A stretch of 55,442 nt of DNA from an uncultured Bacilli bacterium (GTDB lineage Bacteria; Bacillota_I; Bacilli_A; RF39; UBA660), in NCBI GenBank assembly GCA_944363715.1, contig CALVUX010000013.1, forward strand, positions 1-55,442, in the 5' to 3' direction. Positions 23,070 through 54,890 of this stretch are shown one piece after another. Numbering within the stretch: the first letter of the stretch is position 1; each line of letters opens with the position of its first letter. The translations under genes were made by a program, and so were the position numbers. The notes beneath the pieces were generated by a model. That model saw nothing but the letters and a program-made list of their open reading frames with translations, was not told the DNA's origin and did not search any database.

Positions 23070-24218
23070 CTATACTAAACTAACTAAATTATAGTATAAC
23101 TTTAATCCTTCAAACAGTATGTTTAAACTCGCATTTATATCTCTATCATTATGTGATCCACATACTGGACAATCATATTCTCTTATACTTAAATCTTTTA
23201 ACTTACTATTCTTATATCCACAATGACTACATATTTGACTACTTGGATAATAGGTATTTATTTTATAATATATCTTTCCTTTTATCTTACATTTCCACTC
23301 CATTAAAGAAAGAAATGTACTAACACACGCATCTGATAGACTTTTATTAAATGCTTTTTTCTTATCTTTAAACATATCTTTTACTAATAGATCTTCTGTT
23401 ACTATAATATCATGGTCATTCACTATCTCATTAGCTATATTGTTTAAATAATGTTTTCTATAATTTTTAATTTTAGCATGTAATCTTGCTATCTTTTCTT
23501 TTGTTTTTAAATAGTTCTTACTACCTTTAACTTGTCTTGATAACTTTCTTTGTAATCTTTTTAATCTCTTTTCAAACTTCATTATTACTTTCGGATTACT
23601 ATATTTAATACCATCACTTGTTACTACTAAATCTTTTATACCTAAGTCTATTCCTACTATAGTAGTATGGGTTACTTTATCTACTAAAATATCTTCAACT
23701 ACAACAACACTAACATAATATTTATTAGTTATTTCTTTTGTTATAGTTGCATTTAATATCCTTCCTTCTATTTTATCTTTATTTCTATATCCTCTTATTT
23801 TGACTTTACCTAATTTTGGTAATTTTATATTTCTAGTTAGTAAATCTACTTCTATATTACTATATTCTTTTTCTTTATATGTACCTCTTACACAACTAGT
23901 TCTATAAGAATGTTTACTAAATTTACTTTTAAATTTAGGATAACCTTTTCTTTTATCATAATAATCATTAAAAGCTTTACTTAAATCATCTACAGCAGAA
24001 CGTAATACAGTTGAATCTACTTCTTTTAAAAATTCATTTTCTTCTTTTAATTTAGGTAAATCTTTATGTAAATCAAATCTATTTATACTATTATTATCTT
24101 TTAAATAATTAAGATAATAATTATATATAAATCTTTTACATCCTAAAGTTTTGTTTATTAATCTCTTTTGGTCATCTGTTGGATATAACCTAAATTTATA
24201 TGCTATATATATTTCCAT
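23070..24218 (-). CDS. tnpB: IS200/IS605-type TnpB RNA-guided nuclease
   Basis: TnpB is the RuvC-type, RNA-guided DNA nuclease of IS200/IS605 and IS607 elements and the ancestor of Cas12. The 382-residue protein has an N-terminal helix-turn-helix region starting YKFRLYPTDDQK and the RuvC triad Asp191 (GIDLGIKDL), Glu275 (TEDL) and Asp360 (DRDINAS), plus a zinc ribbon Cys330-Cys333-Cys350-Cys353. Everything needed for activity is there. No tnpA transposase accompanies it, so it depends on a TnpA in trans or is a domesticated remnant. A ribosome binding site GGGAGG precedes the ATG. The element sits between the sigma factor gene and the RelA/SpoT homologue, in the same direction. Confidence 0.95.
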   Translation of the reverse strand: MEIYIAYKFRLYPTDDQKRLINKTLGCKRFIYNYYLNYLKDNNSINRFDLHKDLPKLKEENEFLKEVDSTVLRSAVDDLSKAFNDYYDKRKGYPKFKSKFSKHSYRTSCVRGTYKEKEYSNIEVDLLTRNIKLPKLGKVKIRGYRNKDKIEGRILNATITKEITNKYYVSVVVVEDILVDKVTHTTIVGIDLGIKDLVVTSDGIKYSNPKVIMKFEKRLKRLQRKLSRQVKGSKNYLKTKEKIARLHAKIKNYRKHYLNNIANEIVNDHDIIVTEDLLVKDMFKDKKKAFNKSLSDACVSTFLSLMEWKCKIKGKIYYKINTYYPSSQICSHCGYKNSKLKDLSIREYDCPVCGSHNDRDINASLNILFEGLKLYYNLVSLV

Positions 24219-46368: not shown

Positions 46369-46647
46369 TTAATCTTCTTTAGTATCTTCATCTTTAATGT
46401 TATTATATGCTTCAATAATTTTATCTTGAAACATTGCTCTAACTTCTGGATTAATTGGATGTACAATATCACGATATCCTCCAGCTTGAGTCTTTCTACT
46501 AGGCATAGCAATAAAAAGTCCATTATCACCTTCAATGATTCTAATATCGTGAACAGCAAAAGAATCATCAATTAAAACAGATGCAATACCTTTCATACGA
46601 CTTCCTTCTTTTTCAATTTTTCGTACATTTACAGATGTAATTTTCAT
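46369..46647 (-). CDS. spoVG: SpoVG, RNA/DNA-binding regulator
   Basis: SpoVG is a small nucleic-acid-binding protein that affects septum formation at sporulation in Bacillus and virulence genes elsewhere. The 92-residue protein starts [20 protein letters not shown] and has the conserved [30 protein letters not shown] precedes the ATG. In the 92-base leader I see a possible TATAGA -10 but no clear sigma-H site, although spoVG is the classical sigma-H gene in Bacillus and a SigH homologue is encoded at 24333. Confidence 0.96.
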
Positions 46648-46739
46648 ATGTAACCTCCTAATACTAAGTCTTATAAGTCAATTCTATACCAGTTAACTAA
46701 CTTTTGCAAGATATTTTTAAAACATTGTCAATTACTTTA

Positions 46740-47780
46740 CTAAATATTAAATGAGTTACCCTTATCTTTATACGTATTAACTATTTGTTCTGGTGTTAAT
46801 AAAAGACCCATTTCTTTTTCCTTTTCTAATTGCTCATTATATGAATCTACTAACTTTTTATAATTTTCTAAGCCATAATTTCTAATAGCAACAGTTAAAG
46901 ATTTTATAAATTCGATAGAATCCATATAATCAGGAACAAAAGACTTAAGAGCAGAACATCCCATATTAGAAAGCAAATAATTATAAAAATTTCCCAAATA
47001 ATAATTAGTAACAGTTAAAGAATTATCATATTCACTTGCAACAGAAGAAAGCCTACCCATATCATCATTATTCTTTGTTAGCAAATCATAATACAAAACT
47101 TGAGGAATATCATAAGAAATTGCTATTTCATTAATTACTCTTTTAGTATCTTCACTAGTTTCTGAAGGAAAAAAACCGCCAGCACTTCTTGTTAAAGATA
47201 ATTTTTCATAATGAAATCTATCACTATTAGTAAGAGTTTCTTTTACTGCATCCTCTAAACTTCCATTAACTATTTTCACAGTAAAGTTAAGATTACATAA
47301 CCTACTTTTATCAAAATCACTTAAAGAATTATAAAAATCTTTTTTAATAAGCAAAACACCACTTGAAGAAATAATAACTTTTCCTTTAATAGCAGTATCA
47401 GTAGGCATCAAAGAAACAACATCAGAAATATGCTCTTTTAAACCATCAACAATTACACAATTCTTATTACTAAACGTATTATTCATATCATCAGGAACTA
47501 AACCATTTAAAGAAAATAAAACCACTGAATTATATGAAGAAATATATGGTAAATAGCTATCTAAAATTTCTTTTCTTTTTGTTTGATACTCTTCATCATT
47601 AATTTTAGTAAAATCATATGATTCAAGTATACCTTGTTCAGTTAACAAATCACTAATCATAAAACTAATCTGCATTCCATTTGGTTTAACTAAATATGGA
47701 ACTTCACTAATAGGATTAATAACTCCATCAAATGGAATAATATTAGTCGCTCTAACTATAGCAATGTTATCAATATTCAT
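46740..47780 (-). CDS. hypothetical protein in the sporulation cluster (346 aa)
   Basis: I do not recognise this protein. It is soluble, without signal or membrane segments, with two mixed alpha/beta parts: residues 1-180 (starting NIDNIAIVRATNIIPFDGVI, with VIISSSGVLLI near 135) and 200-345, mainly helical. RSAGGFFPSETSEDTKRV near 210 and the C-terminal LTPEQIVNTYKDKG look conserved-like. The start is the ATG at 47780, with AGAGG upstream. It lies between veg and spoVG, where Bacillus has sspF, ispE, purR and yabJ, so a sporulation or DNA-related role is possible, but this is by position only. Confidence 0.7.
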   Translation of the reverse strand: MNIDNIAIVRATNIIPFDGVINPISEVPYLVKPNGMQISFMISDLLTEQGILESYDFTKINDEEYQTKRKEILDSYLPYISSYNSVVLFSLNGLVPDDMNNTFSNKNCVIVDGLKEHISDVVSLMPTDTAIKGKVIISSSGVLLIKKDFYNSLSDFDKSRLCNLNFTVKIVNGSLEDAVKETLTNSDRFHYEKLSLTRSAGGFFPSETSEDTKRVINEIAISYDIPQVLYYDLLTKNNDDMGRLSSVASEYDNSLTVTNYYLGNFYNYLLSNMGCSALKSFVPDYMDSIEFIKSLTVAIRNYGLENYKKLVDSYNEQLEKEKEMGLLLTPEQIVNTYKDKGNSFNI

Positions 47781-47821
47781 ATAAATCACAACCTCTTATA
47801 CTAAGTATACCATAAAATAAA

Positions 47822-48037
47822 CTACTTAAGTATCTCCAAACTAGAAGTAATCAAATCACTATAAGAAAAAGATTTAATATTATTATCATCAACTAATTTA
47901 ACTACAAATATAGAATGATATGTCTCTATTATTTCCCCATCAAATTCTACTATTTGATTTCTACTACCATTAAATTTAAAATGAAGTATCTTTCCTTCTT
48001 GAGACTTAACCTCATCTCTTACTTTATCAACATTCAT
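47822..48037 (-). CDS. veg: Veg protein
   Basis: Veg is a small conserved protein (DUF1021) of Bacilli, linked in Bacillus to biofilm control through SinR and to spore outgrowth. The 71-residue protein starts NVDKVRDEVKSQEGKILHFKFNGSRNQ in the family manner and has the second beta half IIETYHSIFVVKL. It overlaps yabG by four bases (ATGA), hence it is coupled to it. Order rsmA-yabG-veg is as in Bacillus. Its link to biofilm is interesting given the TasA-like cassette close by. Confidence 0.93.
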   Translation of the reverse strand: MNVDKVRDEVKSQEGKILHFKFNGSRNQIVEFDGEIIETYHSIFVVKLVDDNNIKSFSYSDLITSSLEILK

Positions 48038-48813
48038 CTAGGATACCCCACATACATAACACCATTAGTAATAATACCACCCATACCATCACTACCATAA
48101 TGTGTTTTATCTAAAAGACTTATTAAATCAATTTCTTTATTCTTAGGAGATAATGCTACAGCACTTGCTATTATAGCAGGGTCTAAAGCATGAATATTAA
48201 TCCTCTTAGGACTAGAAGCAAAGTTAGCACCAGCTTTAATTAAATCTTCATAAAAAGACTGACATGCTCCTGCTATTATAATGAGTTTATCTTGATTTCT
48301 CTCATACTCTCTAGCTTTAACAGTTGCCTTAACAAAATTATTAGAATTCTGATAACTAGACAAATTATTCTTATCTTTATTTTTCTTAAAAGAATCATGT
48401 CCTGTAATAACTAAAATATCTGGTTTATACTCTTTTAAACAAGAAGTAATATCTCTTTCAAATCTTTCTTCATCCAAATTAACACCATAAGCTTCTAAAT
48501 GCATATCTTTATAAAAATCTATACATCTTTTCAAGTAATCTTTATCCCCATCAATATGTAAAATCTTTCCAGGTAAATAAAAGTATTCACTTCTATCTAA
48601 ATTTAACATATCTTTAATCTTTAAAGCATCATTACGGTCTTTATTATTATCATAATTTACTAAAGCCTTTTCTAAATCATCTAAACTACTATCAGCATAA
48701 AGTCTAACATCTATTCCCTTTAAATAAGCTATATCATCTTTAATATCAATAATTGTAAATATTATATCGTTATTATAAGAATTCCTAGTTACAACATCAC
48801 CTATTTTAAACAT
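48034..48813 (-). CDS. yabG: sporulation-specific protease YabG
   Basis: YabG is a mother-cell cysteine-type protease that processes spore-coat proteins. The 259-residue protein begins MFKIGDVVTRNSYNND and carries the typical stretches FYLPGKILHIDGD, DILVITGHDS and IIAGACQSFYEDLI, with the likely active His in ITGHD and Cys in AGACQS, and ends MGGIITNGVMYVGYPR. The ATG at 48813 has GGGTGA upstream. This is strong evidence that the organism makes endospores. Confidence 0.95.
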   Translation of the reverse strand: MFKIGDVVTRNSYNNDIIFTIIDIKDDIAYLKGIDVRLYADSSLDDLEKALVNYDNNKDRNDALKIKDMLNLDRSEYFYLPGKILHIDGDKDYLKRCIDFYKDMHLEAYGVNLDEERFERDITSCLKEYKPDILVITGHDSFKKNKDKNNLSSYQNSNNFVKATVKAREYERNQDKLIIIAGACQSFYEDLIKAGANFASSPKRINIHALDPAIIASAVALSPKNKEIDLISLLDKTHYGSDGMGGIITNGVMYVGYPR

Positions 48814-48851
48814 AAAATTCACCCATTAAATTATATGTTTAAAAGAAATAA

Positions 48852-49655
48852 TTATGATTTATATAAAGTATTAGCCATCTCAACAAATATTTTATAATCT
48901 AAAGCCTCAGCTCTCACACTCAAATCATATCCATATTTATTTAAAACTCTCTCTAAAAGTTCTAAATCATATTTTTTTAAATTATTTCTTAAAGTCTTTC
49001 TCCTAAACTGAAAACTATCATGAACAAGTTTTATAAAAAAGTCTTTATCTACTAACTCTTCGAGCATCTCTTTTCTACTAAAAGACACAACAATACTATC
49101 TACATTAGGTCTAGGATAAAACTGATTTCTATCAACAATAAATTCTTTTCTCACATCAAAAAAATAATTAAGAATAACAGTAAGAGCCCCATAATCTTTT
49201 GTAGATACCTTACTACAAAATCTATCCCCAACCTCTTTTTGAACCATCATTACAATTTTTTCAAAAGCTAAATTACTATCAATCAATTTAAAAAGTATAG
49301 GAGTAGTTATATAGTATGGTACATTACTAACAAAATAAATATTATTATAAGAATATTTCTTCACATCTAAAGCAATATCTGCCTTAAGAAAATCAGAAAA
49401 TAAGACTTTTGCATTATTATAATCCTTAAGTCTAACAGAAAGAATATCTTCTAAATTATTATCTATTTCATAAGCCAAAATATTACTATCTTTATATAGT
49501 TCTGCTAAAGCAACAGTTAAATTACCACTACCAGGGCCTACTTCTATAATCAAAGACTCTGGTTTAACTAAAGCAACTCTAGCAATTTTATCAACAATAG
49601 CTTTATTCTGTAAAAAATTTTGCCCAAACTTTTTCTTAAATTTAAACTCTTCCAC
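48852..49655 (-). CDS. rsmA: 16S rRNA dimethyladenosine transferase RsmA/KsgA
   Basis: The enzyme dimethylates two adjacent adenosines near the 3' end of 16S rRNA and serves as an assembly checkpoint. The 267-residue protein has KKFGQNFL, the S-adenosylmethionine site EVGPGSGNLT, the catalytic NVPYYITTPILFK and a C-terminal helical domain with FRRKTLRNNL. The start is the GTG at 49655, eight bases after AAGGAAG; a GTG at 49664 abuts that site. A promoter (49691-49719) precedes it, so it heads the rsmA-yabG-veg operon. Confidence 0.96.
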   Translation of the reverse strand: MEEFKFKKKFGQNFLQNKAIVDKIARVALVKPESLIIEVGPGSGNLTVALAELYKDSNILAYEIDNNLEDILSVRLKDYNNAKVLFSDFLKADIALDVKKYSYNNIYFVSNVPYYITTPILFKLIDSNLAFEKIVMMVQKEVGDRFCSKVSTKDYGALTVILNYFFDVRKEFIVDRNQFYPRPNVDSIVVSFSRKEMLEELVDKDFFIKLVHDSFQFRRKTLRNNLKKYDLELLERVLNKYGYDLSVRAEALDYKIFVEMANTLYKS

Positions 49656-49690
49656 AAAACTCACTTCCTTTAATTTTACTTATTATTTAG

Positions 49691-49719: not shown

Positions 49720-49755
49720 GAAAAAAGTCTAAGCTTTCTTTAATTCCTTAGACTT
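49720..49755 (-). terminator. terminator of the surface cassette
   Basis: AAGTCTAAG (49725-49733) and CTTAGACTT (49747-49755) form a nine-pair stem that includes the stop codon of the 49729 gene. On the minus strand TTTTTTC follows. Confidence 0.85.
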
Positions 49756-50184
49756 ATCAACATTTTTATCTTTTTCTCTAAACATAAATAATATATTTGC
49801 AATTAGCAAGCCATATAACATAATCCTTATATATGCTATAAAATTATCAAAATAATTAAAGTCAATACCATACCCATATTTTTGGTTTAAAACCATATTT
49901 GTATCAAAAATAGCCCTATATCCAACAAAAATTATTATAGCAAAAACTAAACAGCAAGTGAGATTATAAAATAAATTCTTAGTAACTCCTATCTGTTTAA
50001 AAATCATATTAATAATAAATACAACAAATAAAAGAAGAAAAGGAATAAGCTGTGATAGAATACTAATCATATCCTTATCTAGTCTTACATTCATTCTAAT
50101 TAGTATAAATAAAGTAAGTCCAAAAGATCCAACTAAAAGAAGAAATTTAAGTATATAAAACAAACCATTAAATATTCTTTTCAT
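49729..50184 (-). CDS. four-helix membrane protein at the end of the SipW cassette
   Basis: A 151-residue protein with four membrane helices (about 8-27, 40-60, 72-90 and 112-132), a Lys-rich cytoplasmic tail and no recognised family. It is the last gene of the cassette, three bases after the 50188 gene and before a strong terminator, so it is very likely cotranscribed with the SipW and TasA-like genes. It may help in membrane assembly or anchoring of the surface polymer; this is by position only. Confidence 0.7.
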   Translation of the reverse strand: MKRIFNGLFYILKFLLLVGSFGLTLFILIRMNVRLDKDMISILSQLIPFLLLFVVFIINMIFKQIGVTKNLFYNLTCCLVFAIIIFVGYRAIFDTNMVLNQKYGYGIDFNYFDNFIAYIRIMLYGLLIANILFMFREKDKNVDKSKELKKA

Positions 50185-50187
50185 ATT

Positions 50188-50877
50188 CTATCCTCCCACC
50201 ACAATACTTCTATACCAATTTGATATTTCCACAAGCATATCTAATGTATTAATATAATTATTCATAGTGCTCGAATAACTATCATTAACTAAATTAAAGA
50301 AATTATTCTTATTAGCATCAGTACTAAAATTATAATGATCTGAATTCTCAATATTATTTTGAATATAATCAGTAGATGTTAATACACTACTAACATTTAA
50401 ATCAATATATGGACTTATTAAATTAAAATCAGGCAAAGATGTTATAGTATCTATGTTTTGCATAGATTTTATTTGCATAACTAAACAGTCATTAAGTATT
50501 TCATTTCTATAATCTAAAATAAAATTATAACTATCTTTAATATTAATCTCATTTAGCTCAAAATATTGCATCAAAGAATCACTTTCAATAATATCAAGGC
50601 AAGATTGAAGTTTTATTTTAACAGTATTAAGGCCATAAGTATTTAAAGTTCCTGTATAAGTAGATTGATCATATACACTTATATTATTTTTAATAGTCTC
50701 AATTTTATTTTGAACATTCATTTTATTATTAATATTGTACTCACTTATATCAATTTCTTGTGCTAATTCTTGCATATGATAAAAATTTATAAAAAGCAAG
50801 AAAAAAGCAAGTCCAAATATTAATCCAGTAAAGGTATAAGCAAATACATTAGCATACTCTAGTAATATTTTTTTCAT
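50188..50877 (-). CDS. single-pass membrane protein with extracytoplasmic helical domain
   Basis: The 229-residue protein has one membrane helix (about 12-34) and an outer domain of some 190 residues, rich in Asn, Ser and Ile and mainly helical, ending in SNWYRSIVVGG. No family recognised. It starts within the last four bases of the TasA-like gene at 50874, so the two are coupled. It could be a chaperone, tether or terminal piece for the secreted fibres, analogous in position to TapA but not similar in sequence. Confidence 0.7.
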   Translation of the reverse strand: MKKILLEYANVFAYTFTGLIFGLAFFLLFINFYHMQELAQEIDISEYNINNKMNVQNKIETIKNNISVYDQSTYTGTLNTYGLNTVKIKLQSCLDIIESDSLMQYFELNEINIKDSYNFILDYRNEILNDCLVMQIKSMQNIDTITSLPDFNLISPYIDLNVSSVLTSTDYIQNNIENSDHYNFSTDANKNNFFNLVNDSYSSTMNNYINTLDMLVEISNWYRSIVVGG

Positions 50878-51419
50878 AAATCATCCTCCATTTGTATATT
50901 GACATTAAAATGATAATATTTATTTTGCCAATTAGTATTTTGAGCAGATTCGGCAACATAAATACGTAATTGATATTTGTTAACCTGGCCCGCCGCAATA
51001 TTTCTTGTATCTATAATATTATTGTTAATATCGCTTAAGTTCCCGATTTTGATAACATTTCCATTTAAAGACAACTGATATCGTAATTGACTTCTAGAAA
51101 GTAACTCTCTGTTACTATAGGATTCATCATCACTAATAATACTATCCTCTAATAAAACATTGTAAGTAACAGAAGTATCTCCATTATTACTTACTGTAAC
51201 TTCATATGGAGTTAATATTGTCGCTGTATCATCATCCAGAGGAATAAGTCCTTCTTCATCAATCGTATTATTAAAGTCATCTGCTTGAACCGTAACAGAG
51301 CTCGTAGCATAATTATCATAAGATGAACCATAGAAAAATCTATACCACAACATAGAGGTAGCAAAAATAAATGAAAACAATGCTATACCTGCTAAAATTA
51401 ATAAAATAATTTTTTTCAC
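50874..51419 (-). CDS. TasA-like secreted protein, divergent member
   Basis: The 181-residue protein has an N-terminal hydrophobic helix followed by a beta-sandwich-like region with TPYEVTVSNNGDTSVTYNVLLED and YQLRIYVAES, which matches the 'YRLRMWV' end motif of the four other TasA-like proteins. It has two aromatic residues after the helix (MLWYRFFYG) rather than the A-A-F cleavage-like site of the others, so it may stay anchored. It is coupled to sipW (four-base overlap) and to the next gene, and might be the base or minor subunit of a fibre. Confidence 0.75.
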   Translation of the reverse strand: MKKIILLILAGIALFSFIFATSMLWYRFFYGSSYDNYATSSVTVQADDFNNTIDEEGLIPLDDDTATILTPYEVTVSNNGDTSVTYNVLLEDSIISDDESYSNRELLSRSQLRYQLSLNGNVIKIGNLSDINNNIIDTRNIAAGQVNKYQLRIYVAESAQNTNWQNKYYHFNVNIQMEDDL

Positions 51420-52093
51420 TTTTTAAACCTTCTTTCCTTCTTTGATATATTTTTCTTTTTTTCTATCCTTTTTTCCATTTTACGCATATCATTCTCATCA
51501 GAACTTCTTAAAGTCCTAATTAATTTATATATATCATAACCGATAATCATAATAGCAGGAGCAATAATAATAGAAACCCAACCTAAAATAGAACTTAAAT
51601 AATATTGAATATAACCTACTTTTGGAATTACAAATAATACTTTACCATATATTTCATTAAAACTGATTCTAGAAGAATCTTCAGTATTATTATTATCACC
51701 TTTAGTAGTATAAAGATATTCACCACTACTAGTTTTTTCAATATTTATAATTCTATGAGTAACACGAACACCAGAATATCTATAATCTGTAGAATTAAAA
51801 GTAATAACATCTCCTTCAGATAAGTCTTCTGGAGTATCAACTCTCATAGTAACAACAATATCCAAAACATTAATAGCAGGAACCATAGAGGGACTAACTA
51901 TTGTATAAGCAGAGAACAAATCCTTCTTATTGTTTCCAGATTTTAAATTGTGCTGTTTATCAATAAAATTAACTACAAACACTAAAAAAACAATAATCAT
52001 AATCAAGCATATTGAATACATCAATACAGTTGCAAGAAAATGAAAAATTTTTTTCAACTTTATAAACCATTTTTTCTTATTTAACCTTGTCAA
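51416..52093 (-). CDS. sipW: SipW-type signal peptidase I
   Basis: This 225-residue signal peptidase of the endoplasmic-reticulum (Ser-His) type has a membrane helix (about 20-45), nucleophile Ser in IVSPSMVPAI, the His in RVTHRIINIE in place of the Lys used by ordinary bacterial enzymes, and GDNNNTEDSSRI, then a C-terminal membrane helix and a basic tail. SipW cleaves TasA and TapA in Bacillus. Here it sits between TasA-like genes and should process them. I prefer the TTG at 52093, five bases after GGGTG, though a GTG at 52105 is possible. Confidence 0.9.
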   Translation of the reverse strand: MTRLNKKKWFIKLKKIFHFLATVLMYSICLIMIIVFLVFVVNFIDKQHNLKSGNNKKDLFSAYTIVSPSMVPAINVLDIVVTMRVDTPEDLSEGDVITFNSTDYRYSGVRVTHRIINIEKTSSGEYLYTTKGDNNNTEDSSRISFNEIYGKVLFVIPKVGYIQYYLSSILGWVSIIIAPAIMIIGYDIYKLIRTLRSSDENDMRKMEKRIEKKKNISKKERRFKK

Positions 52094-52173
52094 GTTATCA
52101 CCCACTTATTACTCTTTAAGTACAATACCATAAATGTTAGAAGTTTAAAACATCTTTTATTTAATTTCAATTT

Positions 52174-52809
52174 TTAATCATCTACATCTATTTTAGCTTT
52201 TATAGACACAGTAACACCAAATGTTTTTTCTAAATCACCTACAACAGTAGATTCATCTACCCACATTCTTAATCGATATCTAATAATATCGCTCTTATTT
52301 AGAGTACCACTATCAAGTAACATACTGCCAGCCATAGTTCCTAATTCTGTGCTTTCTGTAAGTGGAGTAAAATTTTTAGGAGACATCACCTCTTCATAAT
52401 TATTATTAACCATTTTTTCTAAATATAACCTTACTTCATCATTATTAAGAGTAGAATTATTCAATTTCTCTGCATAAATTTCATATTTAGTAATCACATC
52501 TCCAGTAATTGAAGCTTCAACAGTAAAATCAAAATATTGATTTTCGTCAGTCAATATTTTTCCAAGTTCATCATTCATAGGATAAGCATTAGTAATATTA
52601 ATACCATTTGTATCTTCTGTATAATTTAAGTAAATATTACCAGTACTTATAGTATTAATATCACTATTACTCTCTTTAGTATAAGTAAAAGTAGCAACAG
52701 ATATACCTATTACCATAATAATAAAAATAAACAAGCAAATAATTATAATAAATAGTTTGTTGTTAGATTCTTTTTTTATAGTTTCACTTTCATATTGCTT
52801 ATTATCCAC
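52174..52809 (-). CDS. TasA/camelysin-like secreted protein 4
   Basis: About 211 residues: a charged start, a hydrophobic helix (about 22-42) ending SVATFTYTKES, where cleavage before TF would parallel TasA, and a beta-rich domain with the family stations NTISTGNIYLNYTEDTNGI, AYPMNDELGKIL, FDFTVEASITGD and YRLRMWVDES. The start is the GTG at 52809, five bases after GAAGGTG. It is the last of four tandem paralogues, 75 bases after a partial terminator, and 80 bases before sipW. Confidence 0.85.
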   Translation of the reverse strand: MDNKQYESETIKKESNNKLFIIIICLFIFIIMVIGISVATFTYTKESNSDINTISTGNIYLNYTEDTNGINITNAYPMNDELGKILTDENQYFDFTVEASITGDVITKYEIYAEKLNNSTLNNDEVRLYLEKMVNNNYEEVMSPKNFTPLTESTELGTMAGSMLLDSGTLNKSDIIRYRLRMWVDESTVVGDLEKTFGVTVSIKAKIDVDD

Positions 52810-52860
52810 AATAACACCTTCTATCTTAAAATAATTGTACCACACTAATTTTTAGAGGTA

Positions 52861-52886
52861 AAGAAAAAGTGTAGATAAACTACACT
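52861..52886 (-). terminator. internal terminator between TasA-like genes 3 and 4
   Basis: AGTGTAG (52868-52874) and CTACACT (52880-52886) pair, and the minus strand runs into TTTTTC. It includes the stop codon of the 52885 gene. Confidence 0.7.
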
Positions 52887-53484
52887 AAGATGACATATTG
52901 CCATAAACATTAATTCTCATTAAATAAGTTAAACTTTCATCAGGAAGAACATAATCAGAATCAACCCACATTCTTAATCGATAATTATGAGCGCTTGTTT
53001 CTCTAAAATTATTTTGATAAATTAAATATTGATTATTAGGTGTATATGATAAAGTATCAGTTGATTTTAATTCAGAAACTTTAGTAGGCCTTACTACTTG
53101 ATTTTCACCATTACCATCAAGACTAGTTAAATATACTTTTACCCCTTCATCTGGTAATGTACTACTTCTATCTTTAACCCCAACTATTGCATAATCAATA
53201 GTAGTAGAACCACTTACTGTGGATGCTACTGTAAAATCAAAATATTCATTATTATTAGAAAGAGCCATTCCAACAGAATCGTTCATAGGAGAAGCATTAG
53301 TTAAATAAATTCCATTATTATTTTCACTATAACTCATGGTAATAGTACCTGTAGTAACTTTATTAACTTCATTACCAACTTTAGAATAGTAAAAAGCGGC
53401 ATAACTAGTAGCAACTGTAACAATAAATAAAATAATGATTGCAATAATAGTTAATATAAGAGATTTGTTTTTATTCTTATTCAT
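52885..53484 (-). CDS. TasA/camelysin-like secreted protein 3
   Basis: 199 residues: basic N-terminus (NKNKNKS), hydrophobic helix, cleavage-like ATSYAAFYYSK, then NKVTTGTITMSYSENNNGIY, ASPMNDSVGMAL, FDFTVASTVSG, DYAIVGVK and YRLRMWVDSD, in the same order as its neighbours. The ATG at 53484 has GGAGG five bases before it. It follows paralogue 2 by 27 bases and ends in an internal terminator. Confidence 0.87.
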   Translation of the reverse strand: MNKNKNKSLILTIIAIIILFIVTVATSYAAFYYSKVGNEVNKVTTGTITMSYSENNNGIYLTNASPMNDSVGMALSNNNEYFDFTVASTVSGSTTIDYAIVGVKDRSSTLPDEGVKVYLTSLDGNGENQVVRPTKVSELKSTDTLSYTPNNQYLIYQNNFRETSAHNYRLRMWVDSDYVLPDESLTYLMRINVYGNMSS

Positions 53485-53511
53485 ATTAGCCTCCAATTAC
53501 AAAATTTAATG

Positions 53512-54129
53512 CTATAGAGCAGGAGATGTACCATATACGTTGACTCTTAGTGTATAAGTACCACCATTAGATATTGTATAATCATCAGAAACCCACATTC
53601 TTAAACGATAATTATCAGTAATAGAATTTGTGATACTATCATTAAAAAGAATAAATTCCCCACTAGACGGTTGATAACTTTCAGAACCTGTGGTAACGCT
53701 TAAATTAGATATTTTTGTTGGTTCTAATACTACACTCTCAAGATTATTATTAACTTTAGTTAAATAAACTTTAATAGCAGAATCATCAACAGTAGACTCT
53801 CCTTTAACAGCGGTAATCGCATAATTAATTGTTGCATTACCCACAATCTCTGCTTCTATTGTAAAATCAAAAACATTTAAAGAACCTGATAATAATTTTC
53901 CTTGTTCATCAGATATAGGTAAAGCATTAACGAGATTAATTCCATTATCTGGTTCGCTATAGCTCATATTTATAATACCTGAATTAATCGTATTTGCTTT
54001 TTCTCCTGTTCCCAAATAATTAAAAGCGGCGAAAGAAATAGCAACAACTATAGTAATTAATACAATAATAGCAGATAAAGAAAATATAATTTCTTTAAAA
54101 TTATTTTTAACTTTCACATTCTTGTCCAC
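53512..54129 (-). CDS. TasA/camelysin-like secreted protein 2
   Basis: 205 residues starting at the GTG at 54129, ten bases after AAGGAG; the longer frame to 54183 would read through that site. After the hydrophobic helix comes AISFAAFNYLGTG, where A-AF matches the TasA cleavage site, then NTINSGIINMSYSEPDNGI, ALPISDEQGKLL, FDFTIEAEIVG and YRLRMWVSDD. It lies 110 bases after the first paralogue, past an internal terminator. Confidence 0.87.
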   Translation of the reverse strand: MDKNVKVKNNFKEIIFSLSAIIVLITIVVAISFAAFNYLGTGEKANTINSGIINMSYSEPDNGINLVNALPISDEQGKLLSGSLNVFDFTIEAEIVGNATINYAITAVKGESTVDDSAIKVYLTKVNNNLESVVLEPTKISNLSVTTGSESYQPSSGEFILFNDSITNSITDNYRLRMWVSDDYTISNGGTYTLRVNVYGTSPAL

Positions 54130-54191
54130 CTTAATTTCTCTCCTTCTACTATAAATATAACATATTACATAGATATAAAGCAATTAAAAAG

Positions 54192-54219
54192 AAAAAAAGT
54201 GTCAGAGATTAGACACTTT
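54192..54219 (-). terminator. internal terminator after the first TasA-like gene
   Basis: AAAGTGTC (54196-54203) and GACACTTT (54212-54219) pair, with seven T following on the minus strand. It would reduce transcription of the genes beyond the first paralogue. Confidence 0.8.
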
Positions 54220-54239
54220 AATTTCAATATTAATTAATA

Positions 54240-54890
54240 TTATTGTGCGTTAGCTTGACCATAAACATTAACTCTTAATTTATAAGTTTCTGAAGTTGTT
54301 GGTGCAGTAGCAGTATCAGCCATCCACATTCTTAAACGATAAGAATCAGTATTACTAGCACCAGAATAAGTACCAGTTGCTAACACATATCCACCAAGAC
54401 TACTAGGCACTCCTGCAGAACTTGCAGTATCAGATGAAGCTAAAGTATTTAGTATTGCTGGAGAAGTAGTATTTCCTACACCTGTGCTACTTGCATCATC
54501 AGTATCTGTAGTACTATCTGTTAAATATACCTTAACAGTAGCATCAGTTAAAGCAGTACCAGAATTTCCTTCATCAGGAATAGCAATAATTGCATAATCA
54601 ATTGTAGCACTACCAGTTACACTAGCAGTAACAGTAAAATCAAAAGTATTATTTAGACCTGTTAAAGCTTTACCTTGAGGATCAGTCATTGGTAATGCAT
54701 CTGTAAGCTTAATACCATTTTCAGGTTCATCATAATTCATTGTAATTGAACCAGTAGTAATGATATTTTCTACTTGACCTCTTCCAGTATAAGTAAATGC
54801 TGCAAATGAAACACCTACAACTGCTACAACTAAAATTGCTACACCTAGCACTGATAATAACACTTGTTTAGAGTTATTATTTTCTTTCAT
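54240..54890 (-). CDS. TasA/camelysin-like secreted protein 1 (probable major subunit)
   Basis: The 216-residue protein has a short basic N-terminus, a hydrophobic helix (about 10-30) and GVSFAAFTYTGRGQ, closely like the TasA cleavage region. The mature part carries ITTGSITMNYDEPENGIKL, ALPMTDPQGKAL, FDFTVTASVTGSATIDYAI, an Ala/Ser/Thr-rich insert (about 118-165) and SYRLRMWMADTA, ending YGQANAQ. It is richer in Ala, Thr and Gly codons than its neighbours, has AAGGAGG, its own promoter (54918-54947) and a terminator straight after, all fitting a highly expressed main subunit. Homology to TasA/camelysin is inferred from motifs and from the SipW partner. Confidence 0.88.
   Translation of the reverse strand: MKENNNSKQVLLSVLGVAILVVAVVGVSFAAFTYTGRGQVENIITTGSITMNYDEPENGIKLTDALPMTDPQGKALTGLNNTFDFTVTASVTGSATIDYAIIAIPDEGNSGTALTDATVKVYLTDSTTDTDDASSTGVGNTTSPAILNTLASSDTASSAGVPSSLGGYVLATGTYSGASNTDSYRLRMWMADTATAPTTSETYKLRVNVYGQANAQ

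Follow-up and report, generated by a model that had tools for sequence, protein, structure and literature searches.

A conserved SipW cassette with TasA-like proteins and a coupled membrane protein pair in a family of uncultured gut Bacilli

We analysed a stretch of 55,442 nucleotides, called the window here, from an uncultured Bacilli bacterium (contig CALVUX010000013.1 of assembly GCA_944363715.1). It is contig C13 of a 1.40-Mb genome assembly that has 39 contigs and an estimated completeness of 95.3%. The window carries a cassette of eight genes, which encode four secreted TasA-like proteins (Ta1 to Ta4), a SipW-type signal peptidase, a divergent relative of the Ta proteins (T5) and two membrane proteins (HP2 and HP1). 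The cassette is a conserved locus of one family of uncultured gut Bacilli. We believe it is probably a fibre-building variant of the SipW-TasA kind of locus, with a new membrane module and clients that are diversified by retroelements. Close loci include one from Candidatus Onthousia faecigallinarum (L044), which NCBI places in the class Bacilli.

All eight open reading frames (ORFs) are intact and lie on the - strand, as do all window features given below, in the order Ta1, Ta2, Ta3, Ta4, SipW, T5, HP2, HP1. An earlier sequence-only reading of this DNA, which had eight genes in one direction, was right about this. Ta1 (54240..54890) encodes a secreted TasA-like subunit of 216 aa with the SipW-type signal SFA/AF (the slash marks the putative cut). 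It has its own ribosome-binding site and an intrinsic-terminator-like hairpin downstream (54196..54219; AAAGTGTCTAATCTCTGACACTTT followed by a T-run). For the three paralogues we give the likely starts. Judging from ribosome-binding site and frame, Ta2 (53512..54129) likely starts at a GTG at 54129 in an ORF that opens at 54183, and Ta3 (52885..53484) at an ATG at 53484 in an ORF that opens at 53496. A second intrinsic-terminator-like hairpin (52868..52886) follows Ta3. Ta4 (52174..52809), with an ORF that opens at 52845 and a likely GTG start at 52809, always adjoins sipW and is orthologous genus-wide. Tight spacing, as the sequence-only reading described it for the whole cassette, holds for SipW-T5-HP2-HP1, where the genes overlap or sit a few bases apart, but not for the Ta genes, which are separated by gaps of ~30-110 bases. 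In relatives, terminator-like hairpins occur in 55 of 104 gaps between one Ta gene and the next, against 0.25 expected from shuffles, and in 5 of the 44 gaps after the last Ta gene. Because of these hairpins and the pattern of overlap, the Ta genes look separately tuned and SipW-T5-HP2-HP1 looks like one operon.

SipW (51416..52105) is a signal peptidase I of the endoplasmic reticulum (ER) type (S26B), with Ser-His in place of Ser-Lys, as had been read from the letters. It scored 89.9 bits on TIGR02228 (cut-off 51.85), and Ser73 (in an SPSM motif) and His117 (in a THR motif) are invariant across 24 relatives. On the Bacillus SipW equivalog profile NF046067 it scored 90.5 bits against a curated cut-off of 190, and so it is of the same type, not an equivalog. 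No other protein in the genome exceeds the TIGR02228 cut-off, the other match being far below. If the assembly is complete, all SipW-type signals of the genome therefore depend on the cassette. In one relative, a SipW-like frame with four stop codons (L259; G036 C16:16057-16686) lies near other SipW-like fragments on the same contig; these are either decaying copies or an assembly fault.

The Ta proteins share a set of sequence stations, with Ta2 to Ta4 being 33-45% identical to Ta1. The stations are real, with small departures that the first description had not listed. TGxIxMxY reads TGSITMNY in Ta1, SGIINMSY in Ta2, TGTITMSY in Ta3 and TGNIYLNY in Ta4. In the same order PMxDxxGK reads PMTDPQGK, PISDEQGK, PMNDSVGM and PMNDELGK; FDFTV becomes FDFTI in Ta2, and none of the four departs from YRLRMW. 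After the helix, the site reads FAAF, FAAF, YAAF and VATF, which agrees with the A-AF type, and ATF in the fourth protein, that had been noticed before. Our statistics on the signal and the segment behind it come from an alignment of 60 Ta proteins. There, A is at -1 in 56, S is at -3 in 59, and F stands two residues after that A in 51. The pattern S-x-A/x-F at the end of the helix, followed ~10-15 residues on by N-x-I-x-T-G, is near-invariant, as are N42, T46 and G47 in the mature N-terminal segment. In a tree, the SipW-adjacent Ta4 proteins of the genus formed one group (13 rows, support 94 in the SH-like approximate likelihood ratio test, SH-aLRT), and the other Ta copies of the genus formed a separate group (42 rows, SH-aLRT 99) that duplicates species by species. 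From the idea of a fibre machine with one main and several minor subunits, what stands is a SipW-served, TasA-like set of unequal rank, in which Ta4 is a single orthologous lineage and Ta1 to Ta3 are lineage-wise duplicates. In one same-genus genome, a Ta-type protein of 1120 aa with Big_2/Big_3-like domains lies inside the cassette just before Ta4 (L151, 2133-5492).

A predicted structure of Ta1 (predicted local distance difference test, pLDDT, 82.4) has a membrane helix at residues 6-29 and falls below pLDDT 50 at residues 30-42; from residue 49 on, strands make up a predicted beta-sandwich that extends to the end. With a SipW-type signal followed by a conserved segment that is predicted to be disordered, the Ta proteins have the layout of TasA and the camelysins. 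In a second-look structural alignment of Ta1, the TasA fibre structure 8aur came first (Z 6.1, 133 residues, 3.8 A). Foldseek also returned FimG, 8aur, the PapG pilin domain and the Pyrobaculum bundling pilus 7ueg (E 0.010). At the sequence level, the NF046066 profile matched 2 of the 60 Ta proteins at E <0.01, which does not place them in that family, and searches of PDB sequences with Ta, T5 and HP2 profiles gave nothing useful.

T5 (50874..51419) is homologous to the Ta proteins (hhalign probability 98%, E 2e-13), so the divergent fifth member that had been recognised by eye is one. Its N-terminal membrane helix runs into LWYRFFY and lacks a conserved motif for SipW cleavage; in L049, a distant member, the sequence is SYAWY. 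Compared with Bacillus TapA, the T5 profile reached a probability of 3%. T5 may stay tethered to the membrane and root the fibre. Being related to the Ta proteins, and having a membrane helix but lacking a conserved SipW site, it is a better candidate for an anchor than HP2 or HP1.

HP2 (50188..50877) has 229 aa and is modelled (pLDDT 85) with a single membrane helix at the N-terminus followed by a helical domain, with Cys93 and Cys131 invariant. The distribution of charges suggests that the helical domain lies outside. HP1 (49729..50184), with 151 aa, is likely a four-TM (transmembrane) protein, as we count about four predicted membrane helices when reading its sequence. It directly follows HP2 in all 43 loci that we compared (39 distinct), and where T5 is missing (L048, L052, L203), HP2 comes directly after SipW. 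HP2-HP1 is thus a coupled accessory module of the cassette. Fold lists from the PDB for HP2 held generic helical bundles, rhodopsins and designed bundles and were uninformative. We rejected HP2 as a TapA homologue (0.7% for the HP2 profile against Bacillus TapA) and also as a relative of the Ta proteins. The two were correctly described as unrecognised membrane proteins. The suggestion that they replace TapA as an anchor is not supported as it stands, as HP2 is all-helical with no profile similarity to TapA and simpler loci of the family do without both.

Comparison of gene order in related genomes had been proposed as a check, and the order is conserved. Ta(2-7)-SipW-T5-HP2-HP1 lies between 3D/tatD and ksgA in dozens of genomes, which excludes a chance arrangement, and the membrane pair is kept in the cassette (39 distinct loci). 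The earlier reading would have fallen had both membrane proteins been absent from the cassette in all relatives, which is not the case. HP2 is present in 31 of the 35 same-genus genomes, the source genome included. The four without HP2 are also without SipW and are therefore no counter-examples. In a sample of the family with 116 genomes from 115 genera, we found HP2 in 15 genomes, Ta profile matches in 70 and T5 profile matches in 54; the T5 profile also catches Ta-type domains other than T5, and the 54 should not be read as the number of true T5 genes. All 15 HP2-positive genomes were positive for both profiles (P 2.6e-4 for Ta and 3e-6 for T5 under a random draw). Among 395 genomes drawn class-wide, strong HP2 matches were confined to the cassette's family. 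In two loci (L197, L202) the cassette has moved away from ksgA and has retained its own order and HP2-HP1.

The genome holds many other proteins with the same signal; the counts given here rest on profile searches. Searched with the Ta profile, the genome has 22 matching places at E ≤10, of which 11 reach E 1e-6 or better. Beyond the cassette there are at least 12 proteins of ~470-730 aa that have a SipW-type signal (e.g. SYAMF, SYAAF) and a full or partial Ta/T5-type match. Most of them end in one or two DUF6273-like domains, and Pfam DUF6273 matched 15 places in the genome. Two carry a full-length Ta domain (E ~1e-64), and where the match is partial, the domain may have diverged. Separately, we saw many large proteins in the source genome (L121, L123-L128) that have a nearly identical N-terminus (MKKLLLETSFSKIYMIVMIIITLLILGSYFSYAMF...) and divergent remainders, like one head on different bodies. 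A genome of another genus (G284) shows a large expansion, with at least 18 Ta-domain proteins of ~640-710 aa, and no reverse transcriptase (RT) was found there. By sequence reading, a sortase-like gene adjoins a DUF6273-type protein in the source genome (L122, 4009-4818) and another adjoins a Ta-SipW cassette in G446 (L196, 3557-4165).

Diversity-generating retroelements (DGRs) target several of the large Ta/T5-domain proteins, both in the source genome and in related species. The source genome has five RT matches, several of which adjoin Ta/T5-DUF6273-type genes or contig ends. At L211 (1599-3970), one T5-DUF6273 gene has two variable repeats; of their mismatches to the template repeat, 10 of 11 in one and 13 of 13 in the other are at template adenines. 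The mismatches of a Ta-DUF6273 target (L212, 2758-4167, with L209, 5852-5951) are at adenines bar one exception in the core, with the repeats on different contigs. For Ta/T5 targets of relatives, the mismatches at template adenines were 22/22 in G003, 17/18 in G010, 9/11 in G015, and 11/12 and 25/26 in G018; in other genera they were 22/29 (G250) and 29/32 (G236). The combination of RT and adenine-specific template and variable repeats that defines a DGR was found at L211, L238 (22/22), L258 (25/26) and L253 (29/32). At L242 and L256, a Ta/T5-type gene lies near a retroelement and we found no clear template repeat. A DGR survey describes a common target plan of a membrane- or signal-bearing N-terminus and a C-terminal variable region of the C-type-lectin kind (PMC8144416). 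Our loci resemble such surface-target DGRs in having an RT, an avd-like ORF and a template repeat, and their C-terminal variable repeats depart from the template almost exclusively at its adenines. They differ in the N-terminal part of the target, where they have a SipW-type signal and a domain of the Ta or T5 type. In our literature search we found no report that joins DGRs with TasA or SipW. What is new here is a sole SipW-type peptidase in the genome, at least 12 large Ta/T5-domain proteins with the same signal, and the link to DGRs.

DGR loci with non-Ta targets (L208, L252, L248) were set aside. Among them is a second DGR type, in the source genome (L208, 2859-6155) and in G477 (L252, 1709-5145), where the target adjoins MoxR-/VWA-like genes and the template repeat lies upstream of the RT. 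Template adenines account for 10/10 and 12/13 mismatches there.

On one side, the cassette is flanked by a yabE-like 3D-domain gene that is cut by the contig end (54993..55442). On the other side are ksgA (rsmA; 48852..49664), then yabG and veg, which is the usual chromosomal site of the cassette in the family. Downstream of ksgA, this 1.4-Mb genome has spoVG-, veg- and yabG-like genes at 46369-48822. A TnpB-like (IS200/IS605 OrfB) gene of 382 aa lies at 23070-24218, with no obvious tnpA adjoining. As the sequence-only reading had it, we saw no tapA-like gene in the cassette or among the window ORFs, and no sinR-type regulator among those ORFs, the latter by reading, with no profile run.

The explanation we favour, and to which we give somewhat better than even chances, is that the cassette is a Gram-positive donor-strand fibre system that works like SipW-TasA, with T5 as a tethered base, HP2-HP1 as a platform and DGR-edited adhesins. 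In its favour are the conserved gene order, the sole SipW-type peptidase, the signal and site pattern of the Ta proteins, the Ta1 model with its fold matches, the way in which TasA polymerises, the Ta-like T5 that lacks a conserved cleavage motif, the HP2-HP1 pairing that moved cassettes retain, the co-occurrence of HP2 with Ta and T5, and the Ta/T5-DUF6273 fusions with DGR repeats. Published work shows that a TasA subunit polymerises by donating its N-terminal strand to the subunit that follows, and that TapA, whose N-terminus is near-identical, initiates the fibre (PMC9674648, PMC10151520). Here, Sec would export Ta1-Ta4 and the cassette SipW would cut at the A/AF-type site. The disordered N-terminal segment freed in each Ta protein would then complete the beta-sandwich of the next subunit. 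Ta1-3 would be individually terminated, fast-duplicating subunits and Ta4 a conserved special subunit. By retaining its membrane helix, T5 could offer a tethered first (or last) strand as the fibre root, and HP2 and HP1 may be the two partners of a membrane complex by which subunits are gathered or licensed at the fibre base. The large Ta/T5-domain proteins, mostly with C-terminal DUF6273-like domains, would join or cap the fibres as adhesins, some of them re-edited by DGRs; their display on the fibre is suggested by the shared domain and signal. We are more tentative, and in fact doubtful, about this picture in its fullest form, a donor-strand pilus with DGR-hypermutated Ta-DUF6273 adhesins, assembled by an HP2-HP1 platform on a T5 base.

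Known systems are alike in part. In the tapA-sipW-tasA locus of B. subtilis (PMC9674648, PMC10151520), a Ser-His peptidase likewise stands beside small secreted beta-sandwich proteins (predicted ones, in our case) with an A/AF-type site and a free N-terminal segment, and Ta1 has a narrow fold match to 8aur. Unlike that locus, ours has no tapA or sinR that we saw, four paralogues and T5, the HP2-HP1 pair, Ta proteins with no sequence match to TasA/CalY, and large Ta/T5 fusions elsewhere, some of them DGR-diversified. The B. cereus sipW-calY-capP-tasA locus likewise combines one SipW with several subunits of the camelysin type, and a separate protein controls assembly there instead of TapA (PMC13082335). 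However, CapP is described as secreted, SipW-processed and beta-rich (PMC13082335), whereas HP2 is predicted to be helical and HP1 is a small membrane protein; we set them apart by this description. The Pyrobaculum bundling pili (7ueg) have a TasA-like donor-strand pilin and appear in the Foldseek list for Ta1, but are archaeal.

Several results weigh against the fibre explanation. The first Foldseek matches of Ta1 are to chlamydial Pgp3, ahead of FimG and 8aur, and other, unrelated beta-sandwiches lie within one Z unit of 8aur in the structural alignment. Pfam Peptidase_M73 (PF12389) was unmatched in the genome and in the 60 Ta proteins. With hhalign, Ta against Bacillus TasA/CalY-type proteins gave 1% probability (E 0.05), over the signal and N-terminal segment only, and profile iteration across the 1,897 ORFs of the collected loci failed to reach Bacillus CalY/TasA. 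We conclude that the Ta proteins narrowly resemble TasA in predicted fold and in layout, which is the part of the earlier TasA-like label that stands, and that homology to TasA is unproven by sequence. For HP2 and HP1 we found no informative relative, as family searches gave scattered chance-level matches. T5 is missing from the three HP2-bearing loci named above, and therefore either another protein roots the fibre there or our placing of T5 at the root is wrong. Finally, seven loci (L186-L189, L191-L193) hold Ta-SipW only at the site, and T5, HP2 and HP1 are therefore dispensable for some Ta systems. At the same site, one further locus (L185) has Ta-SipW plus T5, and another (L051) only SipW. 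Most simply read, the cassette began as Ta-SipW and gained T5 and then HP2-HP1, with loss as the alternative.

The beta-sandwiches that match Ta1 nearly as well as TasA does would also suit a coat. The Ta proteins could be a SipW-secreted, camelysin- or S-layer-like coat, monomeric or array-forming, with no donor-strand exchange and with HP2-HP1 holding or sorting them at the membrane. Tandem duplication and lineage-specific divergence of the Ta genes fit a variable coat of this kind. We nevertheless think it unlikely, since the conserved N-T-G mature segment, which is disordered in the monomer model, resembles a donor strand, and the fold lists repeatedly contain donor-strand pilins (FimG, the PapG pilin domain, TasA, 7ueg). 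We consider it very improbable that the cassette serves spore or envelope morphogenesis rather than fibre building. We take the cassette's family to belong to the order RF39. By prediction, that order includes both sporulating and non-sporulating species (PMC10868615). The cassette adjoins ksgA-yabG-veg, and its yabG, veg and spoVG-like neighbours are sporulation-linked in Bacillus. However, ksgA, yabG and veg are old Bacillus-type neighbours, and the cassette of L197 and L202 kept its order when it moved away.

It is also rather unlikely, in our view, that SipW-T5-HP2-HP1 is a processing or quality-control complex for the whole SipW secretome, with the Ta genes merely as its nearest clients. 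The overlapping block that these four genes make up, the single SipW-type peptidase with many clients elsewhere in the genome, and the position of HP2 directly after SipW where T5 is missing all fit such a complex. On the other hand, T5 is itself a Ta-type domain, and SipW serves Ta genes in the seven loci that have no HP2-HP1.

Most of what is known about SipW-TasA fibres comes from Bacillus biofilms. In the present case, an uncultured gut family with reduced genomes would have a fibre-like system as its dedicated export locus, with membrane partners of its own and with Ta/T5-domain proteins diversified by retroelements, and HP2-HP1 would be testable candidates for the assembly machinery of TasA-type fibres. 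A role would also be suggested for the many large unannotated DUF6273 proteins in these genomes. If the fibre explanation is true, gut Bacilli gain a counterpart to pili with switchable tips, and their fibres may bear rapidly changing grips.

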